64,000 nt of DNA from Gracilaria domingensis (taxonomy: Eukaryota > Rhodophyta > Florideophyceae > Gracilariales > Gracilariaceae): assembly GCA_022539475.1 (NCBI GenBank), contig VCMS01000160.1, forward strand, positions 58,480 to 122,479, given 5' to 3'. Positions 5,323 through 62,530 of the stretch are shown here, piece by piece (within the stretch, counting starts at the first letter, position 1; every line of letters begins with the position of its first letter). Both the position numbers and the translations under genes were made by a program. A model generated the notes under the pieces. That model was given only the letters and a program-made list of their open reading frames with translations. It had not been told where the DNA came from and made no database searches.

Positions 5323-6816
5323 CTAACACTCATCATCAACATCATCTACAGCAGTTCGTCGATCGACCACCTTGCAATCTCTTGTGAAATTCGCCACTTC
5401 CGCAACGCATTCCTCAGCGGACAAATCACGACTGCCAATAAAGAGCTGCTGCAATGTAGCGATAGTCAAAGGCTTTGCGTTGCCATTCAACGAACTAACC
5501 TTCTCGCTGAATTCATTCACAATTTGATCATCTGCATCGGTGTAAAACAATCTGAACAGCACTTCTAGTTGCTTCTTCGACGGCGGCGAGAATCGAAACT
5601 GCTTATCCACGCGTCCACCCCGAATGAGAGCGGGATCAAGTTGATCGACATGATTCGTAGTCATGATAGTCACTAACCCTTCTGTGCTGGTAACTCCATC
5701 CAATGCATTTAGCAATCCAGAAAACGTAACAGGAGCTTTTGTGGCACTTGATCGGTCTGATTTGAAAAGAGCGTCTGCGTCCTCCAGAACCAGGAGTGAA
5801 TACGAAGGCACAGCATCAAGAGCATCCAGCAGCGTCTGATTACTGAAATTCTCATTAGTCATGGAGAGGAAATAGCATGGAAGTGAAAACTTCCCAGCCA
5901 CCACTCGGATGGTGCTTGTTTTCCCTGTACCCGGAGGGCCTTCAAACAAATAGCTTCGACGATAAGGCAAACCATGTTCGATGTACCAGCTCTTAGATTT
6001 TGGATGAAGAAATGACTCAAGATCTTTAACGAGTCCTTCCATAATCCCATCCCCTAATACAACGGAGTCCATTGGACGTGCTCGCCGAGCACCTTGTTCA
6101 AACCATCTGCCAGAACCACAATTATCAGATTTGAAACGATGTAAGTTGTACATTTTGCCTTGATGATCAGGGTTCGTTCGATCATACTTCCATTGCATTA
6201 CTCCGGACAAAAACTGCTTGAGAGCTTCATCTCCGTCAGATGTCGATATTCGAATTACATGCAGAGTTTCCATGCAGTCATACCCTTTCCGCGGGGCGCC
6301 CATTTCGTAGTGCATGACATGTAGAGTGATAGAGTCTCCCAAATCTTCCGTCAATTTGTACGGGGATTGGTTGTATCTCTCCAAAAGCAAATCTGGAATA
6401 AGATGTCTTGGAGGGGGCCAGCGAACTAGGGTCGAGCCAATATCCATTAAAAGGTTTGGTGACGGAACATTCGCGCGTCGAGCATCAGGGAGGATGTACT
6501 CTGGCGGGTGATGGTCCGGAGAGTCGTCCTCATCGCAACTGTCATAGTCATCTTCACGTCCTGTTCCAAACGGATCTGCGGGGCTGACGAAAAACGAACG
6601 TGCTGCGTTCCCGCTAAACTCCTTCGGACAAAGAGCGGCGTACTCAAGAATGGGACAGAACAGCTTTCGGATGTCATGAGTAATAGTGCATGAGCTAATT
6701 CGATCGAGAGGGGCGTCTAGAGCATGCTGAACACATTTGAAGTGCTCCTCGGGAAAATGAGTGAGCGTGGCTTGCGGAACACCACTGAAGGAAAGTGGGG
6801 ACGGGTCTGGAGCCAT
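5323..6816 (-). CDS. BCS1-like AAA+ ATPase, 497 aa
   Basis: An intact intronless ORF starts at 6816. The C-terminal half is an AAA+ module: Walker A GPPGTGKTS (293-301), Walker B LLVLEDADAL (341-350), sensor-1 region MTTNH (385-389) and RGGRVD arginine-finger region (399-404). Spacing and the phrase TTNHVDQLDPALIRGGRVD match the BCS1 branch. Mitochondrial BCS1 translocates the folded Rieske iron-sulphur protein during complex III assembly. This protein lacks the usual single membrane helix at its N-terminus and carries an acidic linker (88-102), so it is more likely a paralogue with another substrate, as in plant AATP1-type proteins. Walker B has Asp-Ala-Asp where BCS1 often has Asp-Ile-Asp. 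A TATA box lies about 55 bp upstream of the start. Confidence 0.88.
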   Translation of the reverse strand: MAPDPSPLSFSGVPQATLTHFPEEHFKCVQHALDAPLDRISSCTITHDIRKLFCPILEYAALCPKEFSGNAARSFFVSPADPFGTGREDDYDSCDEDDSPDHHPPEYILPDARRANVPSPNLLMDIGSTLVRWPPPRHLIPDLLLERYNQSPYKLTEDLGDSITLHVMHYEMGAPRKGYDCMETLHVIRISTSDGDEALKQFLSGVMQWKYDRTNPDHQGKMYNLHRFKSDNCGSGRWFEQGARRARPMDSVVLGDGIMEGLVKDLESFLHPKSKSWYIEHGLPYRRSYLFEGPPGTGKTSTIRVVAGKFSLPCYFLSMTNENFSNQTLLDALDAVPSYSLLVLEDADALFKSDRSSATKAPVTFSGLLNALDGVTSTEGLVTIMTTNHVDQLDPALIRGGRVDKQFRFSPPSKKQLEVLFRLFYTDADDQIVNEFSEKVSSLNGNAKPLTIATLQQLFIGSRDLSAEECVAEVANFTRDCKVVDRRTAVDDVDDEC

Positions 6817-6870
6817 CTCAACTGGAAGGGTAATATTCAGGGAAATGGTGGCTCTGAGAGGAGCGCTTCC

Positions 6871-6878
6871 CTTTTATA
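6871..6878 (-). promoter_or_regulatory. TATA box of the BCS1-like gene
   Basis: TATAAAAG read on the minus strand, 55 bp before the ATG at 6816. This leaves a very short 5' UTR if transcription begins 25-30 bp downstream. Confidence 0.6.
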
Positions 6879-25024: not shown

Positions 25025-28000
25025 ATGTCCAACCTCCCAAAACCCGCTTTTGGCGAGCGGTCAGCTCCCGTTTCCACCACACTTCCTGACGAGGAGGCAC
25101 CATCACCATCAACAACATCGTCGTATCGGACCTTTTCGCACCGTGCGCTGGCTCTACGTTTGAAAACGGCAGTGGCCACTGGGCAACTCGGAACCTCTCC
25201 GCCTGAGTCGAACCCAGCCGACTTTTCCCTTCTTTGTATGCTGTTCAACACCATTCCATGGATCATTCTGACTATTCAGCTTCTCTGGAGTTCTATCGTT
25301 GTCCTTCTTTCGTACTACCTCGCACCTGAAGATGGGGACTCATTATCGGTCGACTTCTGGAGCTCCCGTCTTGTTGTCTCTGCTTCTGTCTCGTATGCGG
25401 TTGGATGGGCTTTATTCATCCTTCTCGGTTTCTTCATTCGTGAAGCAAGCAATCGATATTGGCAGGCACAACTTGCTTGGTCTCATATGGCTGCCTACCT
25501 GCGCTATGTTCTCAGAGATCTCCGTCAGGGATTCCCTGCAGGTTCATGGCATCCCGGAGACCTTGACCGTATCGTGGCCCATCTTATTGCATTTCCAATC
25601 GCTTTGAAAATGCAGTTGAGGGGAGAAAGAGAGCGTCAGCAACTGAAAGGAATTCTTTGCGATTCTGATATCGATGATGTCCTTGCCGCCAAGAGCATGC
25701 ATTTTCATTGTACAAGAGTTGTCAGGGCCTATTTCAGTGCAGCTCAAGATGATGCTCCCATTTCGTTTTTGTCGGTAGCAATGGAGACTACTCCTGCGGG
25801 TCGAGGCACTCAGCACTTGATCATGAACAATGTCGATGGAGCAGATTCCGAAGCCGGGACTCTCACCACCATATCAAGTTTTACTCCTTCTGCTGGATAC
25901 GTCAACCACATGAAGATCTTTCTTTACATCTGGATGTTCTTCCTTCCTCTCGCAGTTGTTGAAACAAGTGGCTGGTAAGCGTATTGTCAAGACTCATATC
26001 CTCAGACATCTTGCTCTGACATTCTTTTACTAACGTATCTCTCACTCATGCGGTTCAGGTTTACTGTGTTGTGGACCATTCTCATTACGTATGGCGTGGC
26101 AATGCTGTTCACCATTGCAAGAGCTCTCAACGATCCGTTTGGGTATGATTTTCAGGACATCAAACTTAACCGGTTGGCAGCCGAAACCGCATTTCAACTT
26201 CTCAACTCGTTCTCCCTGGAGAAGATAACGTACTCATCAGTTATCGATCCTCATCATGACACTCCAACTTGGTTAGAACAACCTTGTTCCAAAAGATGCT
26301 CTTCTGACCTTAAGAAACTGAAGCAATCGTGCATTCAATCGGTACTTCCTGTGCTGCGGTTCGTCCGAGTCACGAAGAATGTTGCACTCTGTATGGTGAC
26401 CCTGCTTTTATGGACTTCTTTCATTGTCTTCTTCACGTGGGGTACTACCAGAAACGATGACAACAGTTCATGTCGATGGTGGTGCGTGTACATCCCAGTG
26501 GGAGGGTCTACCGATGCATATGTTAGTCTTGGTATATTCCTTGTATTGGGTTTTTGGTTGAATGATGCTTATCGGCGATACTCGAGAGGACTTGAAATCT
26601 GGCAGAGCAAACTGAAACCCGCAATTGAAGAAGCGGCTTTCAGGTTTGCCATGTCCTGCAGTCCGGGTACTTGGCATCAGAGAGACAGGGAGCGCCTTTT
26701 CTCATATTTCGCAGCTTTGCCTTACGCCGCCAAGCAGCATCTTCGAGATACGAGGGACACCTCAGAGCTGCTCAACATTCTGTCTGCAAAGGACGTCGCT
26801 GCTTTCGATGAGTGCGACAATCCGTTCGAACACGCTATGGATGTGATATATGGCTACAACAACAGTCTCGACTGTGGTGATGATAAGACCTGTCAGCTTT
26901 CTGCTTCTCCGATGAGAGGAGCCGGGGAGACCGTCGCCTACACATTGAGAAAGATCGAAATTGCTGTTCACGAATGCGCCGCTATGCACACTTTCCCCAT
27001 TTCGCAGTCATTCACGGTACATCTCAAGGTCTTCGCCGTCTTCTGGTTAGCCCTCCTACCACTAGTATTGGTCGAGTTCAATGGATGGTTGGTATTCTTC
27101 TACATCATTCCCATCGGTTTTTCAGTGGTCAATCTGATAAAGATTGGAGAGGACCTTGCTGATCCCTTTGGTTTTGATGAGTTCGACATTCCGCTGCACT
27201 TGTTTTGCGAAGAAATTAAACATTCCCTTCACGAAATGTACCACAACAGCCGAAGCGGAACCGTTGGATTTGTTCATGGGTCTACTTACTCTCGTACATC
27301 TTTCTTGCCACAAGAAGTTGGAGTGCGAATGATAACTAGTGAGTCGGCCCCAGATACGAAGACGAAATGGTCTTTGGGGAAGTGGCTGAAATCGAAGCAA
27401 GAGACCAAATCTCCGTCTCCTCTAACATCCATATTCTACCTTCTTGAAAGCATTCCGTCCGTCAGAGCTCGAGATATAGTTTTAGTCTTGCTGTGGAACA
27501 CGATAGCAGTATTTACGTCGTACGGAATATCATTTGCATGGGATGAAGGGAGGAGAAATGACTGCCATGGATGGTGCAGTCCGATTGATGTTGACCTTGG
27601 CGTTCTGGGAAATATCGGATTCGCCTTGTTTATGATTTTGGCTTTCCGTGCATCTGATGCAATTGGAAGGTATGAAGATGGCGCAAGGCTCATCTTTGAC
27701 ATGAAGATGCAGTTACGAACCCTTGCGATTGAAGTTATCCAAAATTTCAGGGACGGAATGTTTCACGAGCAGGACAAGGAAAGACTCATCGCCCATATAG
27801 TTCAAATCCCTCTCTCTTTCCGAGAACTTCTTCTGAATGATGGGGAACAAAAGGAAGGGGGCTCTGATGGATTGCTATCAGCGTCAGACAAGCAAAAACT
27901 AGAAAGAAGAAATGACCCTATTTCCTACTTGCTTCAGACAATCGAAGCATATATAGTTCTGCAGGACAAGAAGAATCGTGAAGGTCATGATGATATGGGA

Positions 28001-30772
28001 CCGTACCGATGCCAAGGAACGATCGTGATTTTGATGTTGAATCGGATGCTGACTCTCCGGGAGCTCATTCAGCGAGCATTTGGAGTGAAGCGGTTCCCAG
28101 TTGTGAAAAGCTATACCAGACATCAGCACCTCTTCACTTTGGTTTGGTTGGTGTTACTTCCATTCGCAATGACTCCGTCAGCTGGCTTCTTCACGCTCCT
28201 CTGGGCGCCCATAATCTCGTATGGAGTGATCGGTCTCGAAGAGATTGCAGTAAAACTCGTGGACCCTTACGGAACCGACGCCATCGACATTCCTGTGAAT
28301 GACATGTGCCTCGAAATCGCTGGTTTTATTCTCGATGCTGTGCGTGGCACCGATTGGGATTGTCATCGATTCATAAGATCATCTGCTCCAGATGCAGAAG
28401 CGGAACTGGGAATCACTTTTCGAAATCGAAAGGTACATGCTGAATACAGCCTTCCACGACTCGAATGCGATTCTCCCTCAGGGTTTGGAGAGGAATCTCT
28501 TTCTCATGCTGACAAGCTTGAGGAAACAAGGTTAAAGCCCCGTTTGTATTCCCATTTGGTAAGGTCAGTTCCATGGAGGACTTTGATGATCATATCTTGT
28601 TATACAGCTCTGGCTGTTGTGCTTTCGTATGTATCCAGAGATCGTTCAGAAGCTTCTAAATGGTGGCTTTCACGGATAAGTATCGATGTATCAGTGGCAA
28701 CATATGTGTCATTTGCAGGTACGTACAAAATACCATATTGACGAAGGATTCTTCATGCGTGTGCATTTCATTTCATTTGCCCATTGATTCTGACTTACAT
28801 CCTCTCAGCCTTTCTACTTCTTGGATTCTATGTAAATGCTGCTTTTGATCGCTTCAAGGATGCCGGATACATATGGGTTGATATGCTTCACTCATCCTGT
28901 CACTCCCTTGCGGTTCAATTCCTAACCCTATTTGAAGATGGAGACATCCACGAGGGAGATCATAATCGTATTATCGGTCACATAGCTGCTATTCCTCTCG
29001 TGCTGAAGAGTGAAATGCGGAACTCTCGTGATATCAGAGAGATCAAAGGGCTCCTCTCTCAGGAAGATCTTGCGCATGTTCATTGTGCGGGAAGTATGTC
29101 CCGCTACTGCGTTGAGGTAATCAAAACCTATCAGCTCGTTGCGGCAAGTCGCCCTGAATATACCACTCGGAAGATCATATACGGCAAGAGATTTATAGCC
29201 ATGAAGCGGGAGATGGAGCTATTGGAGAAATCTGTGCAGCAGTCAATGTTTTTGTCATCCTTTCCGATTGCACCAGGATTTTTGATTCTCTTGAATGCTC
29301 TACTTTCCATATGGTTCATAATCTTACCGTTCGCTTTGTCAGAGATATCAGGTACGTCTGAGACGACTTGCGAGCGGTTTGTTTATTGTTTAATAACCGT
29401 ATTGTTCTCTCTCATTACATGTATTTACAGGTTGGTTCACTATACTTTGGGTCACTATAATCGCTTATGGCGTGTTAGGGTAAGTTTTGTGAACCATCTA
29501 GAAACGAGGAGCAGATTTGACTGACTGAATGACGCATGAAATTTCATCAGGATGTACGCTATCGCGTCGGAGATTCAACATCCGTTTGGTTCAGACTTGA
29601 ACGATTTGGATCTTGACAACTTCGCTCGCAATATTGTTTCAGACATTCTCTTCATTCGAAAGAACTACCGAAATACAGAGCGCGGACTTATTCACGCTTC
29701 TTCCGTTCGGCCATTCTGGACGGAACCGTTGAAGCATGAGCCTCGACAATTGCCACAAAGGGGTCTTCGAACCCGCGCACTTGAGAAATTCAGGTTGGCT
29801 GTAAACGTTCTGTCACCGCGGATAATGATGTCGATGCTGATCTGGACCGCATCGTCGATAACGATAGCGTGGTTGGTGTCCGAGAACTTTCCGTTCAAAG
29901 ACGAGTTTGACAAGGCATGCGAGCCATGGTTTTGCTCTCGCATCGCCCTTGACAGTTCCGTACAAGAGTACGTCGGATTTGCATTGTTTCTGTTGCTGGG
30001 TTTCCGTCTTTATGACAGTCACTGGCGATATGTAAGGGCAATTAATATCTGGCAAAGAGGAATTGTTTCAAAGTTGCGGGTCCTGAGCATTCGCATTTTT
30101 GAGAGCTACACTGACAGTTTATGGCACTCAAGAGATCTTGAGCGCATTGCTGCGCATCTGGCGGCCTTCCCGATCGCTCTGATGGGCGAACTGCGTGGAA
30201 GAGACTACAACGAAAAATTCGAAGAGATCTTGGGTGATGAAGACTCTAGAAGACTGCTGTCGACCACTGAACGGGCCAACTACTGTATAGATGTCGTCCA
30301 AAACTATCTTGCAGAAGGAGACAGGATATCGGCGACAAAAGGAACATTATATCCTGCTGGAGGACAAGAGGTTGAGTACATTTGGAAGTACTTGCATCAG
30401 CTGAAGGAAGCGGCATTCGAATGTGATCGGATGGTGCGAGTGCCCATGCCGTACGGATATGTGCAGCACTTGCGAATCTTTTTGGTGATCTGGTTGTTGC
30501 TTCTGCCGCTAGGACTTGTAGAGGACAGCGGATGGTTGACTATTCTTTGGGTGCTGTTCGTAACATACGGCGTGTTGGGAATAGAAAAATGGGCTACGGA
30601 GCTCTCAGATCCTTTTGGTTACGACATATCCGACGTTCCATTGGACGATTTCGTTGAAAAGGCCATCATGACTGTCAAAAGCAATCTTGAACTGTACAGG
30701 GACGGGGTTAAAGACATTGTCGAAAAGAAAAGAGGCGGATTAGTCGTAGAGGAAACTCAAGACAATCTTTGA
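25025..30772 (+). CDS. Five-unit tandem bestrophin-like channel, 1,807 aa, five exons
   Basis: Exons 25025-25974, 26059-28718, 28809-29351, 29431-29479 and 29551-30772 join in frame to 1,807 codons. All four introns are GT-AG, and each junction restores a motif present in the other units. Five bestrophin-like units follow each other. The TM2 motif (GF-x-x-x-x-x-x-x-R-[YF]) starts at residues 135, 481, 845, 1209 and 1551. The clasp motif ([DH]P[FY]G-x-D-x-x-D) starts at 342, 685, 1052, 1411 and 1754. The fourth unit's GFYV matches human bestrophin TM2. Each unit also has a hydrophobic helix before TM2, an [AG]H/SY-type amphipathic segment (such as RIVAHLIAFP) and a hydrophobic LLPL-x-x-[VT]E segment before the clasp. 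Bestrophins are pentameric anion channels, so one chain may supply a whole pore. Units are divergent, so the fusion is old. Confidence 0.92.
25975..26058 (+). other. Intron 1 of the bestrophin gene (84 bp)
   Basis: Donor GTAAGC and acceptor TTCAG. Splicing completes the Trp codon and joins ETSG to WFTVLWTI, matching EDSGWLTILW in unit 5. Confidence 0.88.
28719..28808 (+). other. Intron 2 of the bestrophin gene (90 bp)
   Basis: Donor GTACGT and acceptor CTCAG, phase 1. Splicing joins TYVSFA to AFLLLGFYV, rebuilding TM2 of unit 4. Confidence 0.88.
29352..29430 (+). other. Intron 3 of the bestrophin gene (79 bp)
   Basis: Donor GTACGT and acceptor TTACAG, phase 1. Splicing joins SEISG to WFTILWVTI, the same point in unit 4 as intron 1 in unit 1. 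Confidence 0.88.
29480..29550 (+). other. Intron 4 of the bestrophin gene (71 bp)
   Basis: Donor GTAAGT and acceptor ATCAG. It leaves a 49-bp exon 4 and joins AYGVLG to MYAIASEIQHPFG, completing the clasp region of unit 4. Confidence 0.87.
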
Positions 30773-31370
30773 GGTATAGAGTTGAGCAACGGAGTTGTGC
30801 AGTTGCTATGGTTCGCACGTGCACATACATTCTGCCATGATAGTTATATAGGCTTGTATCATCCTTTAAAGTGCTTCCCACGTTGGAAATCCCAACACCG
30901 GGTGAACCAAAGTTTGCAGCTAATGTCGTGTACTGTCCAAACCCAAACGTCTTCGCACAAACATTGTTATTCCGCTGTAGGTGCGAAAGAAGACGAACGA
31001 ACGAACGAAGGTGAAGGGACAAATAACCTGTACCTTCGGAATCTAAATCTACGTTTATTACCATAACGATCATAAGACTCATGAGTTGTTGAGCTTTGCT
31101 TGCCCGTCGACTGCCTCTACCTCATCCATGGCATGGGACTGAGCCAATTCAAAAACGTTCTTCCCCCATTTTGACCCCGCTTTGATTTTGCTCTTTTCAA
31201 CCGTATGCGTTCTGGGGATGAAGAGAGCTTCAGGGTCTTGTTCCAACTAAAGGTAAAGTCAGGGCCAGTTTTGTTTGGCGCAAACTCATTCTTTAGCTTC
31301 TAGAAGATCGAAAGGACGCAAGTACAGACGAACTGCTACTCATGTCTACCTCCTAATTGGCTTCATGAAG
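30773..31370. other. Intergenic, nothing recognised
   Basis: The 3' region shared by the bestrophin gene and the convergent Cys-rich gene. Short ORFs only. Confidence 0.45.
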
Positions 31371-31991
31371 TCATCTACTGCTATAAGAACAGCCTCGGCA
31401 GCACAGCCCTGCGGGACTGGAAACGGGCGGAGTATATCCACTAGCGTAGCTACACGCGCCGCAGCACGTTCCGAAAGTCCTACCGACAGGCTCTGTTCGA
31501 ATGCACTCCATGACGCCCTTGCGCACTTTCTTCCACCTCGCGATCTCCGCGTACTCGCCCTTGTCGCGGTCCCAGCCACTAGGCATGAGCACCTTGGCGC
31601 GCGACCAAATCCGGTACGTCTCGCGATTCACGCCTTCCGCCTCGTAAAGCTGCGTACCGGAAAATTTGCCTTGCAGCAGCAACAGCTTATTGTTAGATGG
31701 AGGTTCGAGTCGAACTCCCTTTCGGCTGCAATCGTAACAGTTACTTTGCGAGTCGAAGCAGCGGTCCAGATATGCGTTCGAGCACGTGAAGATTTCACGC
31801 CTGTTTGTCTCGGTCTCGTTCTGACTGCTAGCGGGCTCGGTTGGCGCTTCAGTCTCGACTATCCCGACGTCGTCAGCAACGGAAACTGTCGTCATGTGGA
31901 GCACGGACTGACTCAGTTGCGCCAGCCCGCGCATCGCGAAGAGAGACAGTAGAAGGAGCACGCAGTTTGCAAAGGTGGGGATAGATCTCAT
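31371..31991 (-). CDS. Small secreted Cys-rich protein, family A copy 2, 206 aa
   Basis: A signal peptide covers about residues 1-24 (ending RGLA/Q). The mature part has a Thr/Glu-rich N-terminal stretch, then the same Cys framework as the gene at 11431-12033: FTCS, DRCFDS, NCYDCS, KLLLLQGKFSG, QLYEAEG, ECIRTEPVGR, TCCGACSY and LCCRGCSY. All 11 framework Cys of the paralogue are conserved, and a further Cys lies in the signal peptide. The two copies lie 19 kb apart on opposite strands, suggesting an expanded lineage-specific family. The TATA box and ATG spacing is also the same in both copies, which supports both starts. Function is unknown beyond being a disulphide-rich secreted protein. Confidence 0.87.
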   Translation of the reverse strand: MRSIPTFANCVLLLLSLFAMRGLAQLSQSVLHMTTVSVADDVGIVETEAPTEPASSQNETETNRREIFTCSNAYLDRCFDSQSNCYDCSRKGVRLEPPSNNKLLLLQGKFSGTQLYEAEGVNRETYRIWSRAKVLMPSGWDRDKGEYAEIARWKKVRKGVMECIRTEPVGRTFGTCCGACSYASGYTPPVSSPAGLCCRGCSYSSR

Positions 31992-32099
31992 TGTGTACTG
32001 GTCTTGTTGAGGCCCGTACCTGAGTGAGATGATGAGGCTTGGCGATGGCTCGTGTGTGAGACATAACGGCCGAACGTTAGGTGTGTTTCTGCTCCCTAG

Positions 32100-32107
32100 T
32101 ATTTATA
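32100..32107 (-). promoter_or_regulatory. TATA box of the second Cys-rich gene
   Basis: TATAAATA on the minus strand, 109 bp before the ATG at 31991, nearly the same distance as in the paralogue. Confidence 0.55.
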
Positions 32108-32546
32108 CTGGGAAAGCGACATTTGGCGCCAACAATTGGGAGCTTCAGTGAGATTGGCGTAACAGTGGCTACACACAATCAAAGTAGAGCTCTCGGTGTC
32201 GTTGCCGCTTGCAACAATGTGGGCTGCCCCTTAAGCCGCTCTAGTAAGAGGCGTAGATATTTTGCTTTTGGAATGCAGCAAACAACGCGTGGTTGCGCAC
32301 AACAAAGGAACGGCAGTGCTAAGCTGGTCTCCACGAATGGAGCCTTTCTCGTGGTGGTGGCAGATGTTACCGACTCTGTAGGAGTCTGTCAGCTTTCTAC
32401 CGACTCTTGCGACGTGAAGGCCAACAGACTCGAGTCTGCTATAATCGTTCTGCTGGCTTTTTTGGAGCCCTTTGAGAGATGGTCACTGTACCAGGGGTAG
32501 GACGAATAAGACTCAAAACAAACTGTTTTGGTTTAGATAAGGACTT

Positions 32547-32807
32547 TACAATAACTTGGTTATTGTAGCTGCGCCGTCTACACTACACGTACCAACGGTA
32601 GCCTTCCGTCGGACACTGTCATGTATACTGTATAACTTTGGAGGCGACCTTCGTAGCAACACCATGAAGGCTGGTAGGTTCTACGAAGGTACATGACGTG
32701 TGAGCATCATGCTCACGATGATCGTTTCAACATTTTCCCCTGGTCGGGTGACGGTACGCGTACAAGGGCACGGGTTGTGGGCAGAACTTCTGACGTTACC
32801 CTTGTAC
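32547..32807. repeat. Chain of inverted repeats
   Basis: Perfect pairs in order: TACAATAAC/GTTATTGTA (32547-32567), ACCTTCGTAG (32647-32656) with CTACGAAGGT (32681-32690), GTGAGCAT-c-ATGCTCAC (32700-32716), GTACGCGTAC (32754-32763), and GTACAAGGG (32760-32768) with CCCTTGTAC (32799-32807). No supported gene occupies 32108-33551. Confidence 0.7.
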
Positions 32808-33551
32808 CCTGTTCATTCTGACGTGTTGTTTCTTCATTGGCTGTGCACAGCGGTGCTATACAGGGTACACCTGTTAAGTGCTCTCGACTCCACAAATTGG
32901 ATCCAGGGCAGTTTGTTCCAAAATCATTGGTGTCAACAACAAGCTTTGCTTGCACGCTCTCCCACACCTTCAGAGTTTCTTCTTCCTTCATTCCAACGTT
33001 CTGTGCTGAGAATACTGTTCGCATGGGTCAAGAGCTCCACTGGGCTCCTCCCACGCGGGACGAAATGTGCGAGAGATGGAATCTACCTGGAAACAAGGGC
33101 TGGCTTGGCCTCATGCTGTGAGCCATAAACCGTCAGTGACAAATTTCGGCGATGCCCCTGTGTAACAACGTCAACGTCCGCTTTTCTCTCCCCAGGCGGC
33201 GAGTGTCGAGCTCTAGCGACGGCAATGGTATGGGAGAGGGCAATGGCCCGAGCGCGCCAGTCGCGGACGTAATGCGCAGGCGCGGCGCTGCGGCAGAGCA
33301 CAAAGAGACAAGTATTGGTCTCGAGAGACGCGGCTTGCGCCGACGAGAAACGCACGGCTTTGCGCATGGCCTCGACGACGACGGGGCGAGTGGTCAGTGC
33401 GCGCGCGAATGGCTGCTGCGCCGCGCGGCCGCCGTCACGGCGGCTAGGTTGAGACATATCGCCGCGCAATGACCTTCGCCTGCGGCGCGCCCACACGTGC
33501 CGCTCCAGAGCGCCCCCGACTTCCGGCACCAGCACTCCCCCACGCATCACC

Positions 33552-35046
33552 ATGGCGCTCAGTCTGCACGACCTTGAGCGCGGCATTGGGCTCGACCTGC
33601 TGCGCCGCCCCATTATCACCGCCTTCCTCAACGCCTGTCTTCTTCGCTTCTTCACCGATGTGTTTCTGTACCCCGATGACGATGACGACGGCGACGACGA
33701 CGACGATGATGACGACTGCGACGACGATGACGACAGTGGCGATGGTGACGGCGACGACAACTACATGAAGCGCCAGTGGCAGCATAAGTGCGTGGACAGC
33801 GGGCTGTCCGAGAAGGGCGCGGCGGTGACAGTGGTGCTGCTGGCGCAGCTGTTGCGGCTGGTGGGCATGATGGAGACGCTGGCGTGGATGCTGATGGCGC
33901 TACTGTTCGCCGCGCTCAAGCTGCCGCGCGTGTACGCGTTTGAGAAACTGCTGCTGGACGTGGGCGTGCTGCTGTGTCGGCCGTCCGTGTGCTACGTGCA
34001 CAAGCGCATCCGCTTCGAATGCGGCGGCGAGAACGGCGTGCCGCGGCTGCACGCCAGCCGGCACGGCTTTGGGGTGTTCGTGGTGACGATCATCACGTCG
34101 GTGGAGTCGCTGAGCCGCGAGAGCGCGGCGCTGCTGCAGCTGCTGCGCTACATGAACTACACGACGGCGACGTACTGGCGGCACAACGCGCTGGTCATGG
34201 TGGGCGCCAACCGGCACATTGAGCGCGCGCTGTGCGGCGCTTGCCGCGAGCGCGCGGCGATCGACCTGGGGTGGCACAAGGACGTGTTCGAGGCGACCAG
34301 CTTCCGGGTGGAGGCGGTGTTTGCGCGCGCGGATTGCGGCGAGGCGGTCGGGGTGGCCAGCCGCGTGCAGACGGTGGGCCGGAAGGCGGTGGTGGCGGAG
34401 GTGAGCGCGCCGTTCAGCGGCGAGAGCGTGGAGCTGGCGGCGAAGAGCATGGGGCAGTTTGCGGCGGTGTGCGAGGCGTACGAGCGCGGGCTGCGGCTGT
34501 TCAACGGCAAGCGCGTGTCGATCTACGCGGTGGGGCTGGGCGTGTCGGCGGCGCTGATCGTGTTCTACGAGGGGCTGCCGGGGCTGCTGCGGCCGAGCGC
34601 GGACGTGCTGACGCTGGCGGTGGGCGCGTTCACGCTGTGGATGACGGTGGGCAAGAGCGCGGCGCTGGGCGAGACGCAGGAGGAGACGGCGTTCTCGCCG
34701 CGCACGCGACAACGTGCTGCTGGCGTTCCACGGGCTGGCGCGCATCGAGGGCGGCGTGCGCAGCATCGGCTGGGTGCCGGAGCTGTTCCGCGAGCCGGCC
34801 GGCGCGGGCGGCGTGGACGGGTCGATCAGCGCGCTGGAGGCGGCGGTGTTCCTGAGCGTGTTCCACCACGGCGGCCACTTTGTGCGGTGGAGCGGGCCGC
34901 GGCTGCGGCTGCAGCGGCTGCGGCTGGGCGCGGCCGAGAGCGACGGCGTGGCGGCGGTGCTGGGCGCGGCGCGCGTGCGCTGCGCGCGGCGGCTGCCGTG
35001 CATCGGCGGCGCCGTGGCGGCCGCCGCCGTGCGCCGCTTCGGATAA
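33552..35046 (+). pseudogene. Frameshifted copy of the GC-rich membrane protein family (family B)
   Basis: This aligns along its length with the intact gene at 48983-50476 (minus strand), starting from a matching N-terminus (LHDLERGIG against LHEIERGIG). Hydrophobic segments and SMGQFAAVCEAYERGLRLF are shared. Near 34707 the frame shifts; 34714-35046 carries the rest (NVLLAFHGLARI onward). Comparison with the intact copy indicates loss of two bases in a CGCG run. The acidic tract after residue 40 is expanded to a long Asp run coded by GAC/GAT repeats, against about 10 residues in the intact copy. The C-terminal tail also differs. GC content is visibly far above the surroundings. If the frameshift is an assembly error, the gene would be intact. 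Confidence 0.8.
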
Positions 35047-35077
35047 CGGAAGCGAGCGGGCCCTGAAGGGGAGGGCG

Positions 35078-35535: not shown

Positions 35536-35691
35536 TCTTTCTTTGCTGCTCTGATACGGCGTGGAAGTCAAGCTTTTCAGTTGCGCTTCTCTTTTTCTTT
35601 CTTTTCGTCACTATTGGGTGACACCACGACTTTCTCCCCACTCCCCTAGCCCGTCTTCTTGCAACGAGCCTCACATTGTCTCTTGTTTCAA

Positions 35692-38600
35692 ATGACCGAC
35701 CCAATTTCCGCAGGAACAGCAATCGCTGGCGCCGTGCCAGGCACCCTCGACTATTTGTGGAACCTTGTAAATAATCCCGTCCGTCGCAGCGACTTGGCTG
35801 AAGACAATCGCAGGAGATTGCAAGAAGTTCAGCAACTGCTCGAGCAACATCTCGAAACCCTGGACGCTTGGTTGGAAGAGGAAGATTCTCCAGAACACGC
35901 TCTGCAGACTTGGAGAACGAAGCTAGAGAACGCTAAGGACAAATGTGTGCAACTGTCATGTAGGGTTCCGAGCGCTACACTGTTCAGTCGAGTGCGGCGA
36001 GCGGACCAAATTCTGAGCGAAGTGGAGATGACAGCGGAGCTGTTTAATGAGTTTGCCGTAGCTAGGGAAGACAGAATTTCTGGGACTCAAACTGAAGTCG
36101 AGTTTAAAACAAGGTTCGAAGTTCCGATAAACCCACAGCGGCTCATACTGGACTACAAAAACTCTGAAACGTTTGAGGGAAAGCTACGGAAAGCTGTACT
36201 AGAACATTCGGAGCATAAAGTGCTTGGAGTTGTGGCTTCTGGTCGAGGTGGAGTCGGCAAGACCTGTGCCATTCGGGGCTTGATAGGTGTTAAAGATGTG
36301 CGATCGAGGTTTTCGGGTGGTGTGCATTTCATGCGGCTTGGGAAAGATGGTGGAAGTAACGTACTGATTAAGGAGATATCTCGCATTGTTGAATACACAG
36401 GGAATACAGTACTTGCAAGAAGGATACTGAAACGCAGGCCAGAACTACGGAAAGCTGTAGATTGGGCGAAAGAGTGGTTCGCAGAGCACAACTGCCTTTT
36501 TCTTGTTGATGACGTTTGGCAGGCGAACGGGTTCGATGCTGGTACGCTGTTCCTGTTGGCGGATATGATTAACAATGAAAGCCGCCTTGTATACACCACC
36601 AGGGAGAAGGAGCTTGCCGGCGCTGTTGCCAAACAACAACGCATACAGTTCGGACCGAGGAAACCTGAAGCGTCGCGAAATATGTTCTTGAAGCACTCCG
36701 AGTTAGAGGGCTACGCCATTGAAAAGGATGAAAACAAAAAAGCATTGGAACATATACTGAAGATATGTGCAGGGATTCCTTTACTTCTCGCTGTGACGGG
36801 GTCAGGAGTTAGAAATTACCAACGATTCTTGGAGGGACACGAAGAAGATGCTCTGCATTTGTATAATCGGGAACTTGAGAATGAACGGGATATGATAATT
36901 GAGGGTGACGTCACAGGGTACGGATCGGTACGGAACGTTATCAACGCTTCTATATCAGTACTGGAGCTTCGATGGGAACAGAGTGGTAAGCAGGAGACGT
37001 TTCCAATGCCGATCAGGAGGATGCTTCGATCTCTTTGTGTGCTGCAGAAACAGCAGGAGGTACCAGTGTCGATGCTTCGACGGCTATGGGGTTTGAGAGA
37101 TGAGACGAGTACTTGGGAAGTGATGAAAGCGCTCAATTCGGTTGCAGTTGTTGATATCTCAATCCCGAAGGGCAAGGAAAAGTTGAGCTCGGTGCTGCGC
37201 ATGCACGATGATATCCTTGACATGCTCATATTTGAAGAGAAGGAAGAAAACCAGCTGTTAGGACATTTCAAGCGCCTGTTGGACAGTTACTACGAGGGTA
37301 CTGAGGATGATGCTGGACCTGAACCGATGACGGTTTCTGTGAATGCTGATGAGAAAGAGGAGAAGGACTCTCAATCTCGGCTAAATATGGAGGGATTGAG
37401 CTTTTGGAAGCCGCACGAGAATGAAGGAGTGACTGTAGGTGAACCTGCAGTCCCAGACTGTACAAGACCTCAGAAGAGAAGAGAATGGTGGAACGTTGTG
37501 GATGATGATGAGTTTCTCGCAAACAACGTTTGTCGACTGCTGCGGGGAGCCGGAGAATACGAAGAATTGGTTTGGTTGTTGTTGAAACCACAATGGGTGG
37601 TGAAGCGTCTGCAGAGTGATGGAGATATTAGTGTTGAGGATGATTTTTCCACCGGCAAGGAAGCTCTTCATGGCTCTGGTATGGAAAAGAAGGAAGACAA
37701 GAAGATTGCCCTGGAAGCGATAGAGAGCGCAGCACGGTTAAGTCATCATGCCGTAATGGAGAATCCTCGAGAAGCTCACTTTCAGCTTTACGGACGTCTG
37801 TCATGCTATTCGGAAAAGTGCGTGACTATAAGGAGGTTTGCGGAGGAAGTAGAAGAAATTGCAGAGAGACCTTGGTTGAAGGCAAGGAAAGGTTTCTTAG
37901 CAGCTGCGGGTGGGCTTGTTTTGGAGAGGGTATCAGTGGAAGGAATAGTTTGTGGGGTTGCGAAGAAGGGAAACGATCTAAGGGTGTTTATGATGGTGCC
38001 GTTCTACCACTCCGATTTCTGCCGCATAGCGCTCCAGATAGTGAACTACAATGTGAAGAACGGCCGTCGAAACATCGTCGAAGTGGTAGGAAGTGATGGA
38101 GCACTGGCAATAGGGACAATGTCAAGAGATGGAGAACTAGTTGTTACTGTGGACGCGGATGGTAATGTGAAGATGTCGGACGCTATGTTGACTGCAGAGA
38201 CCGTGATTGCACAAAACATCACATCGGCTATGTGTATCTGCTTGAGCGAAGATTCGAAATGGGTTGGATGTGGGCTCTCAGACTGTGGAAAGGTGATAGT
38301 ATGGGACACGCAGGGCGTTGACGCCCCTCGCGAGCTGGTGACGGGAAGAGAAGTGGATGCTCATAATGTCGTTGTGAGTGGGATTGGAAGAAAGGTTGCG
38401 TGTGTTTTGTCTCCCCCTTTAGGTGCAAGCACGATATGGGTATGGGATTTGGAGAGTGGTGAAACGATTTGGAAGGCGCAAACAGAAAATGAAAGTCACG
38501 TGGAATGTGTAGCATTTAGTACGAACGGGAAGATGATTGTGTCCGCTTCGTGGGATAGCAGTATTCGAATTTGGAATGCAGAGACTGGAGAATGCTTACG

Positions 38601-39696
38601 TGTTGCTGAGATTGAGATTGGAGACTGGTTGAGAACTGTGACGTTTGGTCCACGGAACGAGATTCTGTGGGGCTCGTACAGAGGAGCGTTCGGCGTGTGG
38701 GAGCATGAGAATGGAGGCGCCGTGAAAACAGTGGTGGGCGGTGGTGAAAAAGTTTCGTGCGTGGGCGTGTCTGTCGATGGCTCAGAGGGACTCTGCGGGG
38801 GTATGGACGGAACAGTTCAGATATGGGATATGAGAGTCGGGCAGGCGCAAATTGTAAGCTGCGGCGACAACGCGCATGATGCGAAGATATCGAGCGTGTC
38901 CGTGAGTGGGGACGGGAAGCGGATCGCGACGGCGTCGTTGGACGGAACGATTCGGCTGTGGGACGGAGAGAGCGGCACTCTGCTGCCCACGGTGCTGCGC
39001 GGACACATCGGCTTAGTTCCCTGTGTGTCGTTGAGCGAAGACGGGCGGTGGCTCTTGTCCGGCGGCTACGACATGACGGTACGCGCGTGGAACGTGCGCC
39101 TTTCGCGCGCCGTCGGCCGGCCGCTGCGCGGGCACGACGGGCCCGTGGCGGCCGTTGCAATGAACGCGGACGGCAGCGTCGGCGCGTCGGGATCGCACGA
39201 CACGAACGTCCGCGTGTGGGACGCGAGGCGCGGCGCGGCTGTTGGGGAGCCGTTCTGCGGCCACACTAGGAGAGTAACGTGCGTGACGCTATCCGCCGAC
39301 GGCACGCGCGTGGCGTCGGCGTCCATCGACGGCACGCTGCGCGTGTGGGACGTGGTGGCGCACGCGGCCACGCACCAGATCTCCCTTCCAGCCTACCCTC
39401 GGTATGTGATCGACTGTCCGCGGTTGATTTCGCTGCACAGCCGCAGCGCCGATGTTTGGATGTCGGATGGCAGCGTGCACTTGTGCTGTTTGGAGCGCTC
39501 GACTTGCGCGCCGCATCCCTCGCCGCCGCCCGGTCCCTGCAGCTACAAAATGGAGCTCAGCTACTCGCCTCACCGTCTGTGGCTTGGCACGGCGGATGAT
39601 GCTGAGGCGGATTGCCGCCGCTGCGAGCTCGGCTTCTTTCGTGTCCCTCGGGATGAGAGACCTATATGCCTTCGATTCTGTGAATTGCAGCGATAA
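35692..39696 (+). CDS. NB-ARC/WD40 protein (STAND-type NLR-like), 1,334 aa
   Basis: Intronless; the first ATG of the frame is 35692. The N-terminus (1-160) is helical and charged, with no TIR domain. The NB-ARC region has the P-loop GRGGVGKT (184-191), kinase-2 LFLVDDVW (269-276), RNBS-B-like LVYTTR (299-304), the GLPL-type CAGIPLL (359-365) and an MHD motif (504-506), so the nucleotide switch looks complete. A linker is followed by about nine or ten WD40 repeats (roughly 800-1240), ending in phrases such as TVRAWN and LRVWD. Proteins of this design are signal-induced oligomerising switches used in immunity or cell death (APAF-1 has the same order). Codon GC rises sharply over the last WD repeats (from about 38,870). 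Degraded WD and tail sequence recurs at 47500-48968. Confidence 0.92.
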   Translation: MTDPISAGTAIAGAVPGTLDYLWNLVNNPVRRSDLAEDNRRRLQEVQQLLEQHLETLDAWLEEEDSPEHALQTWRTKLENAKDKCVQLSCRVPSATLFSRVRRADQILSEVEMTAELFNEFAVAREDRISGTQTEVEFKTRFEVPINPQRLILDYKNSETFEGKLRKAVLEHSEHKVLGVVASGRGGVGKTCAIRGLIGVKDVRSRFSGGVHFMRLGKDGGSNVLIKEISRIVEYTGNTVLARRILKRRPELRKAVDWAKEWFAEHNCLFLVDDVWQANGFDAGTLFLLADMINNESRLVYTTREKELAGAVAKQQRIQFGPRKPEASRNMFLKHSELEGYAIEKDENKKALEHILKICAGIPLLLAVTGSGVRNYQRFLEGHEEDALHLYNRELENERDMIIEGDVTGYGSVRNVINASISVLELRWEQSGKQETFPMPIRRMLRSLCVLQKQQEVPVSMLRRLWGLRDETSTWEVMKALNSVAVVDISIPKGKEKLSSVLRMHDDILDMLIFEEKEENQLLGHFKRLLDSYYEGTEDDAGPEPMTVSVNADEKEEKDSQSRLNMEGLSFWKPHENEGVTVGEPAVPDCTRPQKRREWWNVVDDDEFLANNVCRLLRGAGEYEELVWLLLKPQWVVKRLQSDGDISVEDDFSTGKEALHGSGMEKKEDKKIALEAIESAARLSHHAVMENPREAHFQLYGRLSCYSEKCVTIRRFAEEVEEIAERPWLKARKGFLAAAGGLVLERVSVEGIVCGVAKKGNDLRVFMMVPFYHSDFCRIALQIVNYNVKNGRRNIVEVVGSDGALAIGTMSRDGELVVTVDADGNVKMSDAMLTAETVIAQNITSAMCICLSEDSKWVGCGLSDCGKVIVWDTQGVDAPRELVTGREVDAHNVVVSGIGRKVACVLSPPLGASTIWVWDLESGETIWKAQTENESHVECVAFSTNGKMIVSASWDSSIRIWNAETGECLRVAEIEIGDWLRTVTFGPRNEILWGSYRGAFGVWEHENGGAVKTVVGGGEKVSCVGVSVDGSEGLCGGMDGTVQIWDMRVGQAQIVSCGDNAHDAKISSVSVSGDGKRIATASLDGTIRLWDGESGTLLPTVLRGHIGLVPCVSLSEDGRWLLSGGYDMTVRAWNVRLSRAVGRPLRGHDGPVAAVAMNADGSVGASGSHDTNVRVWDARRGAAVGEPFCGHTRRVTCVTLSADGTRVASASIDGTLRVWDVVAHAATHQISLPAYPRYVIDCPRLISLHSRSADVWMSDGSVHLCCLERSTCAPHPSPPPGPCSYKMELSYSPHRLWLGTADDAEADCRRCELGFFRVPRDERPICLRFCELQR

Positions 39697-48982: not shown

Positions 48983-50476
48983 TCACACGGCGTTGTGCGG
49001 CGCGGCGCCCGCGGCGGCGCGGTCGGCGCCCAGGCGGCGCGCCAGCGGCGCGCTCTCGCGCAGCCGCAGCGCGGACACGCTCTTGAGCCGCGTCACGGCG
49101 GCCACGTGCGCCAGCCCCGGCACGTCGCCGCCCACCACTTCGAAGCGGTCCAGCGCCAGCCGCGGCCCCTTCCACTTGAGGAAGTGCCCGTAGTGCTCGA
49201 AGATGCTCACGCACACCGCCGCCTCCAGCACGCTGATCGACCCGTCCACCTCCGCCGCGCCGTCGTGCGCCGCCGCCGCCGCCACCTCCCGGTGCACCTC
49301 CGGCACCCAGCACACGTTGCGCACCTCCGGCGCAATGCGCGCCAGCCCGTGGAACGCCAGCAGCACGTTGTCGCGCGTGTGCGGCAAGAACGCCGTCTCC
49401 TCCTGCGTCTCGCCCAGCGCCGCGCTCTTGCCCACCGTCATCCACAGCGTGAACGCGCCCACCGCCAGCGTCAGCACGTCCGCGCTCGGCTTGACCAGCC
49501 CGCCCAGCCCCTCGTAGAACACGATCAGCGCCACCGACAGCCCCAGCCCCACCACGTAGATCGACACGCGCTTGCCGTTGAACAGCCGCAGCCCGCGCTC
49601 GTACGCCTCGCACACCGCCGCAAACTGCCCCATGCTCTTCACCACCAGCTCCAGGTTGGCCGTGCTCAGCGCCGCGCACAGCTGGACCGACACCACGCGC
49701 TTGCCCACCGACTGAATCACACTGTCCGCACCGCGCACGCTCTCGCGCGTGAACACCGCCTCCAGCTTGAAGTTGGTGCTCTCGATCACGTCCTTGTGCC
49801 ACCCGAGGTCCAGCGCGATCGGCTCGCTGCCCAGCCGGCACAGCGCCGCCTCCAGCCGCTTGTTCACCCCCACCATCACCACCGAGTCCGTCGCCCACAG
49901 TGCCACCGTGCTGTTGTTCACGAACCGCACCAGCTGCAGCAGCGCGCGCGTGTCGCGCGTCAGCGACTCGGCCGCGCTCACCACCGTCACCACCATCGCG
50001 CCGTACCCCGACCGTTTCAGCGTCAGCTGCGGCACTTTCTGCCCCGCGCGGCACTGGAACCGAATCGTCTTCTTCACGTAGTACATGGACGGCCGGAACA
50101 GCAGCACGCACACGTCCAGCACCAGCTTCTCAAACCCGTACACGCGCGGCAGTCTCAGCGCCTTGTACACTACCGCAATCACCACCCACGCCACGCTCTC
50201 GGCAAAGCCCACCAGCTGCACCACGTGCGCCGCGATGAAGATGGCTGACGCCGCCAGCTTCTCCGACATGGCGCTCTTCGCGCACCGCACGTCCGCTTGT
50301 TGCTGCGACGCCATCTTCTTTACGCCGTCGCCATCATCGTCGTCCTCGTCCTCGTCCGGCTGCAGAAACGCGTCGGCAAACAGTCGCAAAAGCCATGCGT
50401 TGAGCGTGGCGGTAAGCACGGGGCGTCGCATCAGGTCGATGCCAATTCCTCGCTCGATCTCGTGCAGATTCACCAT
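48983..50476 (-). CDS. Intact GC-rich membrane protein, family B, 497 aa
   Basis: An uninterrupted ORF starts at 50476. Residues 40-50 are an acidic run (DEDEDDDDGD). Hydrophobic segments occur at about 75-105, 304-326 and 333-348, with a possible further one at 160-170. A central soluble part (about 130-300) has the conserved phrase SMGQFAAVCEAYERGLRLF just before the membrane pair. The C-terminal 150 residues are hydrophilic. I recognise no known family. Three more or less broken copies exist at 33.55-35.05 and 39.75-40.15 kb, two of them tied to an NB-ARC/WD40 gene. Codon third positions are almost all G or C, unlike the AT-rich flanks, which could mean transfer, strong codon selection or GC-biased gene conversion among copies. 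Confidence 0.82.
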   Translation of the reverse strand: MVNLHEIERGIGIDLMRRPVLTATLNAWLLRLFADAFLQPDEDEDDDDGDGVKKMASQQQADVRCAKSAMSEKLAASAIFIAAHVVQLVGFAESVAWVVIAVVYKALRLPRVYGFEKLVLDVCVLLFRPSMYYVKKTIRFQCRAGQKVPQLTLKRSGYGAMVVTVVSAAESLTRDTRALLQLVRFVNNSTVALWATDSVVMVGVNKRLEAALCRLGSEPIALDLGWHKDVIESTNFKLEAVFTRESVRGADSVIQSVGKRVVSVQLCAALSTANLELVVKSMGQFAAVCEAYERGLRLFNGKRVSIYVVGLGLSVALIVFYEGLGGLVKPSADVLTLAVGAFTLWMTVGKSAALGETQEETAFLPHTRDNVLLAFHGLARIAPEVRNVCWVPEVHREVAAAAAHDGAAEVDGSISVLEAAVCVSIFEHYGHFLKWKGPRLALDRFEVVGGDVPGLAHVAAVTRLKSVSALRLRESAPLARRLGADRAAAGAAPHNAV

Positions 50477-50831
50477 TGTGATACTCTTCGTGCTTTCGCT
50501 CGAGCAGCGCCACGCTTTGCAGTCCGTCGCCAGCAGACCAACTGGTAAAGCGCGACTGAAACGGACGGCTTTGGTTAATAGGTGGAGTGCTTCCGTTCAA
50601 CGCGGACGAGCTTGGACGAGAGCATCTTGCGTGAGGCGGCACGCTACACACTGTGTAGTACACAGCTGTCAGCTGCAACTGCAACGAGGTGCAAATTACC
50701 CATGACGTTATGGTAGCGGTCACCTCACACGTGTGGTGTGGAACTGTTCCGTTGAACCGTAACTTTGTGGCGTAACCCTTCAGAATGACACAATTATGAT
50801 ATCCGAACTATGGTCGTCACCCTCGGCACGA

Positions 50832-57100: not shown

Positions 57101-58295
57101 TTATCCCACTAGGGCATCGTCCAGCGTCGCTGGTGTGGCTGTCCCCGCGGAGCGGTGGTACTGTACGACCTTCGAGCGTGGTAGGTGCTTGATAGGTTCG
57201 TATGTATCCCACTCTGGGTCGTAGCCGTAACAACGGACGCGGTATAACAAGATGCCTTCCTGGTCCCAGGTATGCCCGACAATTCGGTCGACAATGTACT
57301 CCTGAATGTACACCTGCCGGCCTTGCCGTGTTATTGTTACTTCATCGGTCGACAACCCTTGCGGGGGAACGGTTGCCGTGACGGGGGTAACAGCGCGCGC
57401 CTGGCTTTGCGTCGCCAGTTCCCTCCGAGGGGAGGTGCTTTCGATGTCGCTGCGTACCGCCATTCGGCGTGGTTCCTTCCGCTTCGGCGGCGTCGGCGTA
57501 GCTGTGTGCTCGCCTTGTCCGTTTGCGTCGGAGAGTCCCACCTCGGGTGGCTTCACAACCGTGCGTGCACGTGAATGTAGCGACGGTTGGCTGTCAAGCT
57601 CCCTCGGGAGAACCGCCTCCCTGTTACAGGTGTCCTCCAACGGCTGCGCCGTTGGCCCTTTTCTTTCTTTGCTCAAGTTCCCGTTCTGAACGGTTACTTC
57701 CGGGTTACCGGGGTTATTGACACCGCCGGCGGCTTGCGATCTCGTGATCTCCGCGCGTGCCTGCGCTTGCGCCGATATTTTACGCCCAATATTTGGTGCC
57801 GTACCGTCCATGACGTGAACTCTTCCCGGAGTGTCCGGCATTCCCACGGCTGTACCGCCGGGTTCTACCGAGTTGCTCGAGACTTCTTTTTCCTCAGCTC
57901 GTGCCTGCTCCGCAGGATTTTCCAGGATTCCTGGTCGTTCTGCGTCGCGTCGCGCGGCGGGCCGCGATGTCGCTGCGCTTTCCCTAGTGGGGCTTCGTTC
58001 CGACGGCGTCGGCGTGATGCCGGTGACATCTTTCGACTTCGTTCGACCCAGCGCGGCTGGTTGGCCACGAGGTTCTGTTGACTTAACCGAGTCCGCTTCT
58101 GCGTGAGTGTCCTTACCCGGCGACGGTGTAGACTTCCCGGCAACGGGGCTGTGTGTGCGGCGTGCGAGCGTACGTTGCGGACACGATGCCCGCGCACTGG
58201 CCGGAACATCCGGAGAGCTCCGTATGGTCCGTGCTTCACGGTTGTCCTCACAACGCGACGTCGGCTTATGACTCTCAGCAGAGCTGATAACCTCC

Positions 58296-58308
58296 TCCCC
58301 CTCCTTAG
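58296..58308 (-). promoter_or_regulatory. Internal copy of the polypurine tract (in pol linker)
   Basis: Exact 13-nt match (element-sense CTAAGGAGGGGGA) to the tract beside the 3' LTR. It encodes SKEGE within the disordered linker. A candidate secondary plus-strand priming site. Confidence 0.45.
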
Positions 58309-61300: not shown

Positions 61301-61395
61301 GCCATCCCACATTGTGGTAAACTCCCGTAACATGTCTCTTAGACGTTCACGGTGCGACTCCGGTATATGACCGAGGTCAAGTTCCTCGAGCGCCT

Positions 61396-62283
61396 TCAAG
61401 GGGTCAACCTTGTCGTAGCTCGTAGGCTTACGCTCTTCTGTCCCTGACACAGGGTTTGGTTCCGAGTCAGTCGGTTGCTTCTCCGTTGCGACGGTAGTGG
61501 TACTCGTGGAAGCGGCAGGAATTGCGACTCCCTCCCCCTCCTTAGATGAGGCGACGTCCTTTCGGAGGTAACTAATCCGAGAACATCCGCAGCCGTCATC
61601 TTCGTTGGAAGCATCGCGAGTGGGTGTGGTGTCACAGACCCAATGACTTGGTTCTTCACCAGATACTGGGGGGTGCTGCCAAGGTTGGCAACGAGTATCC
61701 GGAACGGAGTATCCGGTGTGACTTGCACAACGCCATTCGCGACAGCGAGTTGGCACTTCTCGTACAACGAGGTAAGCGGTTGAATAACCCGAAGACCGTG
61801 TTGACGGGAATTAACCGACACCATCATTTGGGACTCAGGCGGGATGCGGATCGACGCGGCGACGCGGAGCTTGGTGGACTCGCGCGACGCCGGTGCCGGG
61901 GCCTGCGCAGCAGGAAGTGGAACTTGCTTCCGCGATGACGGCTTCAGCGGACGACGGAAGATCGGTACCGACGAACCGTCGTCGAGTTCTAAACGCCTGA
62001 GGCGGGGCCTGATTGCATCGACAAACCTGTCGCAGTAATCGCAACCCAAAATGACTGGGGCAGCCAATGACCGACAAACGATGAAGTCGACCTTCACCAC
62101 GGAGGTTCCCAAGCCTACGACTAAGTCGATTGTTCCCACCGTTGTTAACGGGTTGTTATTCGCATCAGCGACATCAGGAAGCATGCTGCGGCGGATACGT
62201 TCCCGCAATTGCGGTGTGAGAAGGGACTCCACGATGAAGTTCGGAGCTGCACCTGTGTCTAGTACAGTCAGGTAACGCACCAT
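61396..62283 (-). pseudogene. Aspartic protease region of the retrotransposon
   Basis: The frame beginning near 62283 contains the retropepsin active site VLDTGAAPNF and the second family motif VILGCDYCDRF, then a Pro/Arg-rich linker. Its frame differs from RT and overlaps it for 360 bp (61396-61756), so continuity needs a frame change within the overlap. Upstream it is also out of frame with the sequence from 62492 (KQNYKVYADLG). These look like indels of decay, though a programmed shift at the overlap is conceivable. Confidence 0.85.
61533..61545 (-). promoter_or_regulatory. Internal copy of the polypurine tract (near start of pol)
   Basis: A second exact 13-nt copy, again encoding SKEGE, in the low-complexity segment before reverse transcriptase and close to the frame change between protease and RT. 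Confidence 0.45.
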
Positions 62284-62530
62284 AAAGTGGGGCTCAGGCC
62301 AAGGTCAGCGTACACCTTATAGTTTTGCTTGGCCATCACCATGATTCGGTCCGGGATCCGGTTATTCCTTACCCGTATCCGCAGTCGACGCAAAACACCG
62401 AGGTGTTCCGAATCCGCGTCTGCGGCGTCTTTCCTCGAGAGGATTTTCACCGGGGAGCGAGGCAACGACGCCTCGGGCGTCAACAGCCTCAACTCTGAGG
62501 ACGCCTCTCCCGAAAGGGAGACTCCCTCGT

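Follow-up and report, generated by a model that had tools for sequence, protein, structure and literature searches.

Can a bestrophin channel, which other organisms assemble from five copies of a subunit, be encoded whole in a single polypeptide? The question is raised by a gene of the red alga Gracilaria domingensis, located in a 64,000-nucleotide stretch of contig VCMS01000160.1 (positions 58,480 to 122,479 of the forward strand; hereafter the window), whose product carries five bestrophin-like units in a row. Our analysis suggests that this product is probably a natural single-chain pentameric bestrophin channel, complete in one polypeptide and with a fixed, asymmetric order of units. It also appears likely that the five units were fused once, before the relatives described below diverged, and have been held at five and in order while each position gained its own pore residues. 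One molecule would thus probably build the whole pore that is elsewhere assembled from five copies.

Gene structure and unit composition

Splicing of the following features, all on the + strand, yields a single frame of 1,807 codons plus stop through four GT-AG introns, as the initial annotation had read it:

25025-30772, +: whole gene from ATG to stop; five exons, 1,807 amino acids, five bestrophin units (from splicing and five PF25539 stretches)
25025-25974, +: exon 1; N-terminus plus the greater part of unit 1
25975-26058, +: intron 1; 84 bases, GT-AG, at unit 1 profile position 253
26059-28718, +: exon 2; from the last part of unit 1 to the first part of unit 4, with units 2 and 3 in between; stop-free
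28719-28808, +: intron 2; 90 bases, GT-AG, at unit 4 profile position 60
28809-29351, +: exon 3; middle of unit 4
29352-29430, +: intron 3; 79 bases, GT-AG, at unit 4 profile position 241
29431-29479, +: exon 4; 49 bases, within unit 4
29480-29550, +: intron 4; 71 bases, GT-AG
29551-30772, +: exon 5; last part of unit 4, then unit 5

The units themselves lie as follows:

25220-26290, +: unit 1, residues 66-394, spanning intron 1 (position-specific profile)
26360-27319, +: unit 2, residues 418-737
27440-28435, +: unit 3, residues 778-1109 (position-specific profile)
28544-29725, +: unit 4, residues 1146-1459, spanning introns 2-4 (position-specific profile)
29783-30715, +: unit 5, residues 1479-1789

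When the protein was split into five pieces, all ten pairs matched in BLAST (26-30% identity over 278-331 columns, weakest E 2.7e-29), and identity among the five units was 22-30% in a multiple alignment. In a Pfam-A scan the only family returned was PF25539 (Bestrophin_2), which matched the protein in five places (575.4 bits, E 3e-173; curated cut-off 27). Since all ten unit pairs match and there are five PF25539 stretches, chance resemblance of the units is excluded, and the earlier claim of five bestrophin-like units in one polypeptide holds. The family proposed for checking that claim, PF01062, was wrong: it did not match the protein at E 0.01, so that the suggested test of at least five PF01062 hits gives none with that family and the full five once read with PF25539. 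PF01062 also had no matches in the genome, a search that is weak alone because control genomes gave none either.

Sequence matches of the protein in the PDB were to KpBest, bestrhodopsin and VCCN1. AlphaFold2 models of exon 2 (mean predicted local distance difference test, pLDDT, 81.5; predicted template modelling score, pTM, 0.80) and exon 5 (pLDDT 86.4, pTM 0.80) gave the bestrophin fold, which is that predicted for units 2 and 5.

An error of gene modelling or assembly, in which five adjacent single-unit genes were read as one, might give the same picture, given that the gene model at this locus was read from genomic DNA. We regard such an artefact as very improbable. Exon 2 is a single open frame of 886 codons. 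It opens in the last part of unit 1, covers units 2 and 3 and continues into unit 4; because it is uninterrupted, no splicing is needed to place these units on one chain. Proteins built alike also occur in Agarophyton chilense (72% identity to the window protein), Gracilariopsis chorda and further assemblies, and a EukProt entry whose GenBank accession is of transcript type (P0008) contains the first three units and the greater part of unit 4.

Conservation of unit number and order

Relatives were sought with the whole chain among proteins of 0.55-1.75 times 1,807 residues, which leaves room for about eight units; scoring covered the 7,992 candidates with the most words in common and returned 43 relatives. 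A search with exon 2 returned 33, of which 20 were new, giving 63 relatives and, with the window chain, 64 chains. These were scored with five profiles, one per unit position (U1-U5), built from 44 of the same chains. All five units occurred in order in 39 chains, U1-U2-U3-U4 in 21, U2-U3-U4-U5 in two, and U2-U3 and U4-U5 in one each, and a sixth unit or an altered order was found by these position-specific profiles in 0 of 64. The earlier proposal that the copy number equals the subunit number of the pore, with a fixed order, is therefore supported, and the same fusion in other red algae, which it had been suggested to look for, is present in Agarophyton chilense and Gracilariopsis chorda.

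Unit sets were incomplete in 25 of the 64 chains, and every unit was at least 60% complete in nine, among them P0007 and P0009 from other assemblies, which have all five. Starts and ends of the shortened chains lie near introns of the window gene: 41 of the 64 start at unit 1 profile position 251-269, near intron 1 (253), and the 21 that end within unit 4 do so at profile position 52-69 (18 chains; intron 2 lies at 60) or 244-250 (three chains; intron 3 lies at 241). For this reason, these chains resemble open frames that break off where the family has introns in common.

Because the profiles derive from the chains they score, the order was tested again without them, using a library of the window's five units only and raw 150-residue windows of the relatives. 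Sixty of the 63 relatives were in increasing order; the other three are weighed below. Relatives without an organism assignment are 25-48% identical to the query, compared with 53% for the Gracilariopsis relative, and many of them probably lie outside the Gracilariales for this reason.

The constancy of five bears on a second alternative, in which each unit is folded as a bestrophin yet the units of one chain form no closed ring, joining instead with units of other chains or making a non-conducting scaffold. Ring closure is here drawn by analogy, and single units of some relatives have lost a clasp aspartate or a neck phenylalanine (P0036, below), as this alternative would allow. We nonetheless consider it improbable: the lack of a sixth unit in all 64 chains, together with 21 four-position chains that all end in unit 4 near intron sites, would have no easy explanation if the working number were not five.

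Origin of the units and further copies

A tree of 101 rows combined units taken from a selection of 22 chains with eight bacterial bestrophins and five single-unit proteins of red-algal type. U1, U2, U3, U4 and U5 each formed one side of a branch with support 100/100, and the single-unit red-algal and bacterial bestrophins together formed one side of a branch with support 100/99. Three rows were flagged: U2 of P0044 as long, and U1 of P0063 and of P0041 for unusual make-up. Since each position has its own fully supported branch, the five units would go back to one ancestor before the sampled chains split and would never have exchanged positions since, provided that the tree is rooted within the group of single-unit and bacterial proteins.

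Of 24 exon-level PF25539 matches in the 77.9 Mb assembly of G. domingensis (680 contigs), the window gene accounts for five. Contigs C203 (the locus of P0005) and C11 carry U1 to U5 in order and represent two further five-unit sets, of which the C11 set has a stop in two matches. Contig C87 carries a single-unit gene with two introns (annotated FGB62_87g091; 78% identical to P0065 of Agarophyton), and C62 and C130 carry additional fragments of the family.

Copies of the window gene and its downstream neighbour lie on C403 and C238 (97.4% and 92.5% identical, respectively, over the best stretch). Both lack window positions 25172-26516, a loss that takes the profiled extent of unit 1 together with the beginning of unit 2, and this shared deletion suggests that they probably descend from one truncated copy. 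The C403 copy has a stop inside unit 5; the C238 copy has stops and also lacks unit 3. Given these stops, the copies with fewer than five units are decaying. The segmental duplication extends over window positions 25048-34312 (to L023 on C403 and L026 on C238) and includes a gene for a small secreted-looking protein at 31371-32102.

Neck and calcium clasp

The second transmembrane helix (TM2) carries a three-ring hydrophobic neck, which in units 1-5 reads W I F, L L F, F M F, F L F and F L F, so that the rings around the pore would be W/L/F/F/F, I/L/M/L/L and F/F/F/F/F. The TM2 phenylalanines are at residues 136, 482, 846, 1210 and 1552, and a P[FY]G.D..D clasp motif is at residues 343, 686, 1053, 1412 and 1755. 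Both motifs thus recur in step across the five units as first described, with positions one residue later than originally given for each and with PYG rather than PFG in the third clasp.

Across the family, third-ring phenylalanine was retained in 15/15, 54/59, 60/63, 42/44 and 34/41 sequences of units 1-5, which also argues against chains that do not close into a ring. Middle-ring phenylalanine was found in 0/15, 1/59, 2/63, 0/44 and 1/41. The window protein, with I/L/M/L/L in its middle ring, does not have the I-F-F neck of animal bestrophins. The neck gives no verdict on ion selectivity: in KpBest, the change I66F shifts the channel towards chloride (PMC8496536), but VCCN1 conducts anions with a P-L-F neck (PMC9076864). 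Cation selectivity as a reading of the non-phenylalanine middle ring was dropped, because VCCN1 has leucine there yet conducts anions. The aperture residue I180 of KpBest found no placement in the units, as that loop aligns badly.

The clasp aspartate pair equivalent to BEST1 D301 and D304 is present in all five units of the window protein, and calcium gating is on this ground a reasonable guess. The two aspartates are no proof of it, because both also occur in two of the eight bacterial relatives, both cyanobacterial.

The proposed channel

Our data suggest the following model. Each unit would adopt the bestrophin fold, and the second transmembrane helix of every unit would line a shared pore, by analogy with KpBest, BEST1 and VCCN1. 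The five covalently joined units would close into one ring, which, because the order of units is fixed, would be asymmetric in a defined manner, each position having its own neck residues. Calcium may gate the channel through the clasp aspartates of the five units. The number and order of the units are observed, and from here we infer closure of the ring, a conducting pore and its gating by calcium.

A third alternative is that the chain is a polyprotein, cut in its linkers into five subunits that assemble into a heteropentamer of 1:1:1:1:1 stoichiometry. The conserved number, order and position-specific residues are also compatible with this reading, and the inter-unit linkers are of low confidence in the exon 2 model (e.g., residues 80-99 and 422-448). 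Separate subunits, however, give no obvious need for one gene and one order across divergent relatives; on this indirect argument we find a polyprotein unlikely, if somewhat less so than units that do not close on themselves.

Several observations weigh against a single-chain pentamer of conserved build. The gene model was read from genomic sequence, and the ring is an analogy rather than modelled geometry. P0039, P0044 and P0063 were labelled out of order in the profile-free test; the profiles place their units in order, and these were built from the same chain set. By the profiles, P0006 lacks the first third of unit 2, and unit 5 of P0002 is in two pieces with about 30 profile positions missing between them. 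The frame of P0008 departs from the family near exon 4 and hence gives no evidence on unit 5. In P0036, unit 3 lacks both clasp aspartates (SE instead) and the third neck ring of unit 5 is lysine. Finally, an organism is named for seven of the 63 relatives (four from Agarophyton chilense, one from Gracilariopsis chorda and two from G. domingensis).

Comparison with known channels

The working analogy for a single-chain pentamer is offered by voltage-gated Na+ and Ca2+ channels, in which subunits of a ring channel were joined in one chain and then diverged; they have four units of a fold unrelated to bestrophin, and the gene described here would be a five-fold counterpart of this four-domain arrangement. 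Among bestrophins, bestrhodopsin assembles its channel from five chains, each with a single bestrophin unit. It is likewise an algal bestrophin in a large fusion chain and was matched in our PDB searches; the remainder of its chain is rhodopsin (rhodopsin-rhodopsin-bestrophin, according to the title of entry 7pl9, which contains five chains).

KpBest of Klebsiella pneumoniae (PDB 4wd7, 6ivn, 6jlf and others) has one unit per chain and forms a homopentamer, in contrast to five units per chain here; it is a Na+ channel without a calcium site (PMC8496536). Animal BEST1 and BEST2 also have one unit per chain and are C5 symmetric, with an I-F-F neck whose middle-ring phenylalanine is nearly absent in the present family. 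The plant thylakoid chloride channel VCCN1 (7ek1-7ek3) has one unit per chain and an N-terminal extension of its own. The window protein is thus a bestrophin by sequence and fold that departs from the build of one unit per chain in a C5 homopentamer, having five diverged units in one chain.

Sequences of this family are already public, since P0005 and P0045 bear the names Bestrophin/UPF0187 and bestrophin in NCBI. Among the matches listed by a full-text literature search, whose scope leaves out most subscription papers, we found no description of a tandem, fused, single-chain or red-algal bestrophin.

Engineers join subunits to fix the order of a channel, and evolution has apparently done so for a five-membered ring. 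The gene may allow a direct test of how asymmetry arises in a pore derived from a symmetric homopentamer, and may show whether the five calcium clasps and the neck positions have divided their tasks. It may also serve as a ready-made single-chain bestrophin in which units can be changed singly, which is impossible in a homopentamer.

Other genes of the window

Elsewhere in the window, a lipoxygenase gene (PF00305; 17068-19137, +) lies tail to tail with a cytochrome P450 gene (PF00067; 19720-21279, -), and the two could form an oxylipin pair. A gene at 5323-6873 (-) encodes an AAA ATPase that has a BCS1-type lid. A 1,348-codon open frame at 35650-39696 (+) has an NB-ARC domain followed by WD40 repeats and resembles an NLR-type receptor. 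Frames at 57101-62304 (-) resemble, as judged by eye, a Ty3-type retrotransposon (reverse transcriptase, integrase and a chromodomain-like end). The protein encoded at 33453-35066 (+), which had no Pfam match, looks similar to that encoded at 48983-50596 (-); the two have stretches such as LRLFNGKRVSIY in common and are possibly members of a local gene family.
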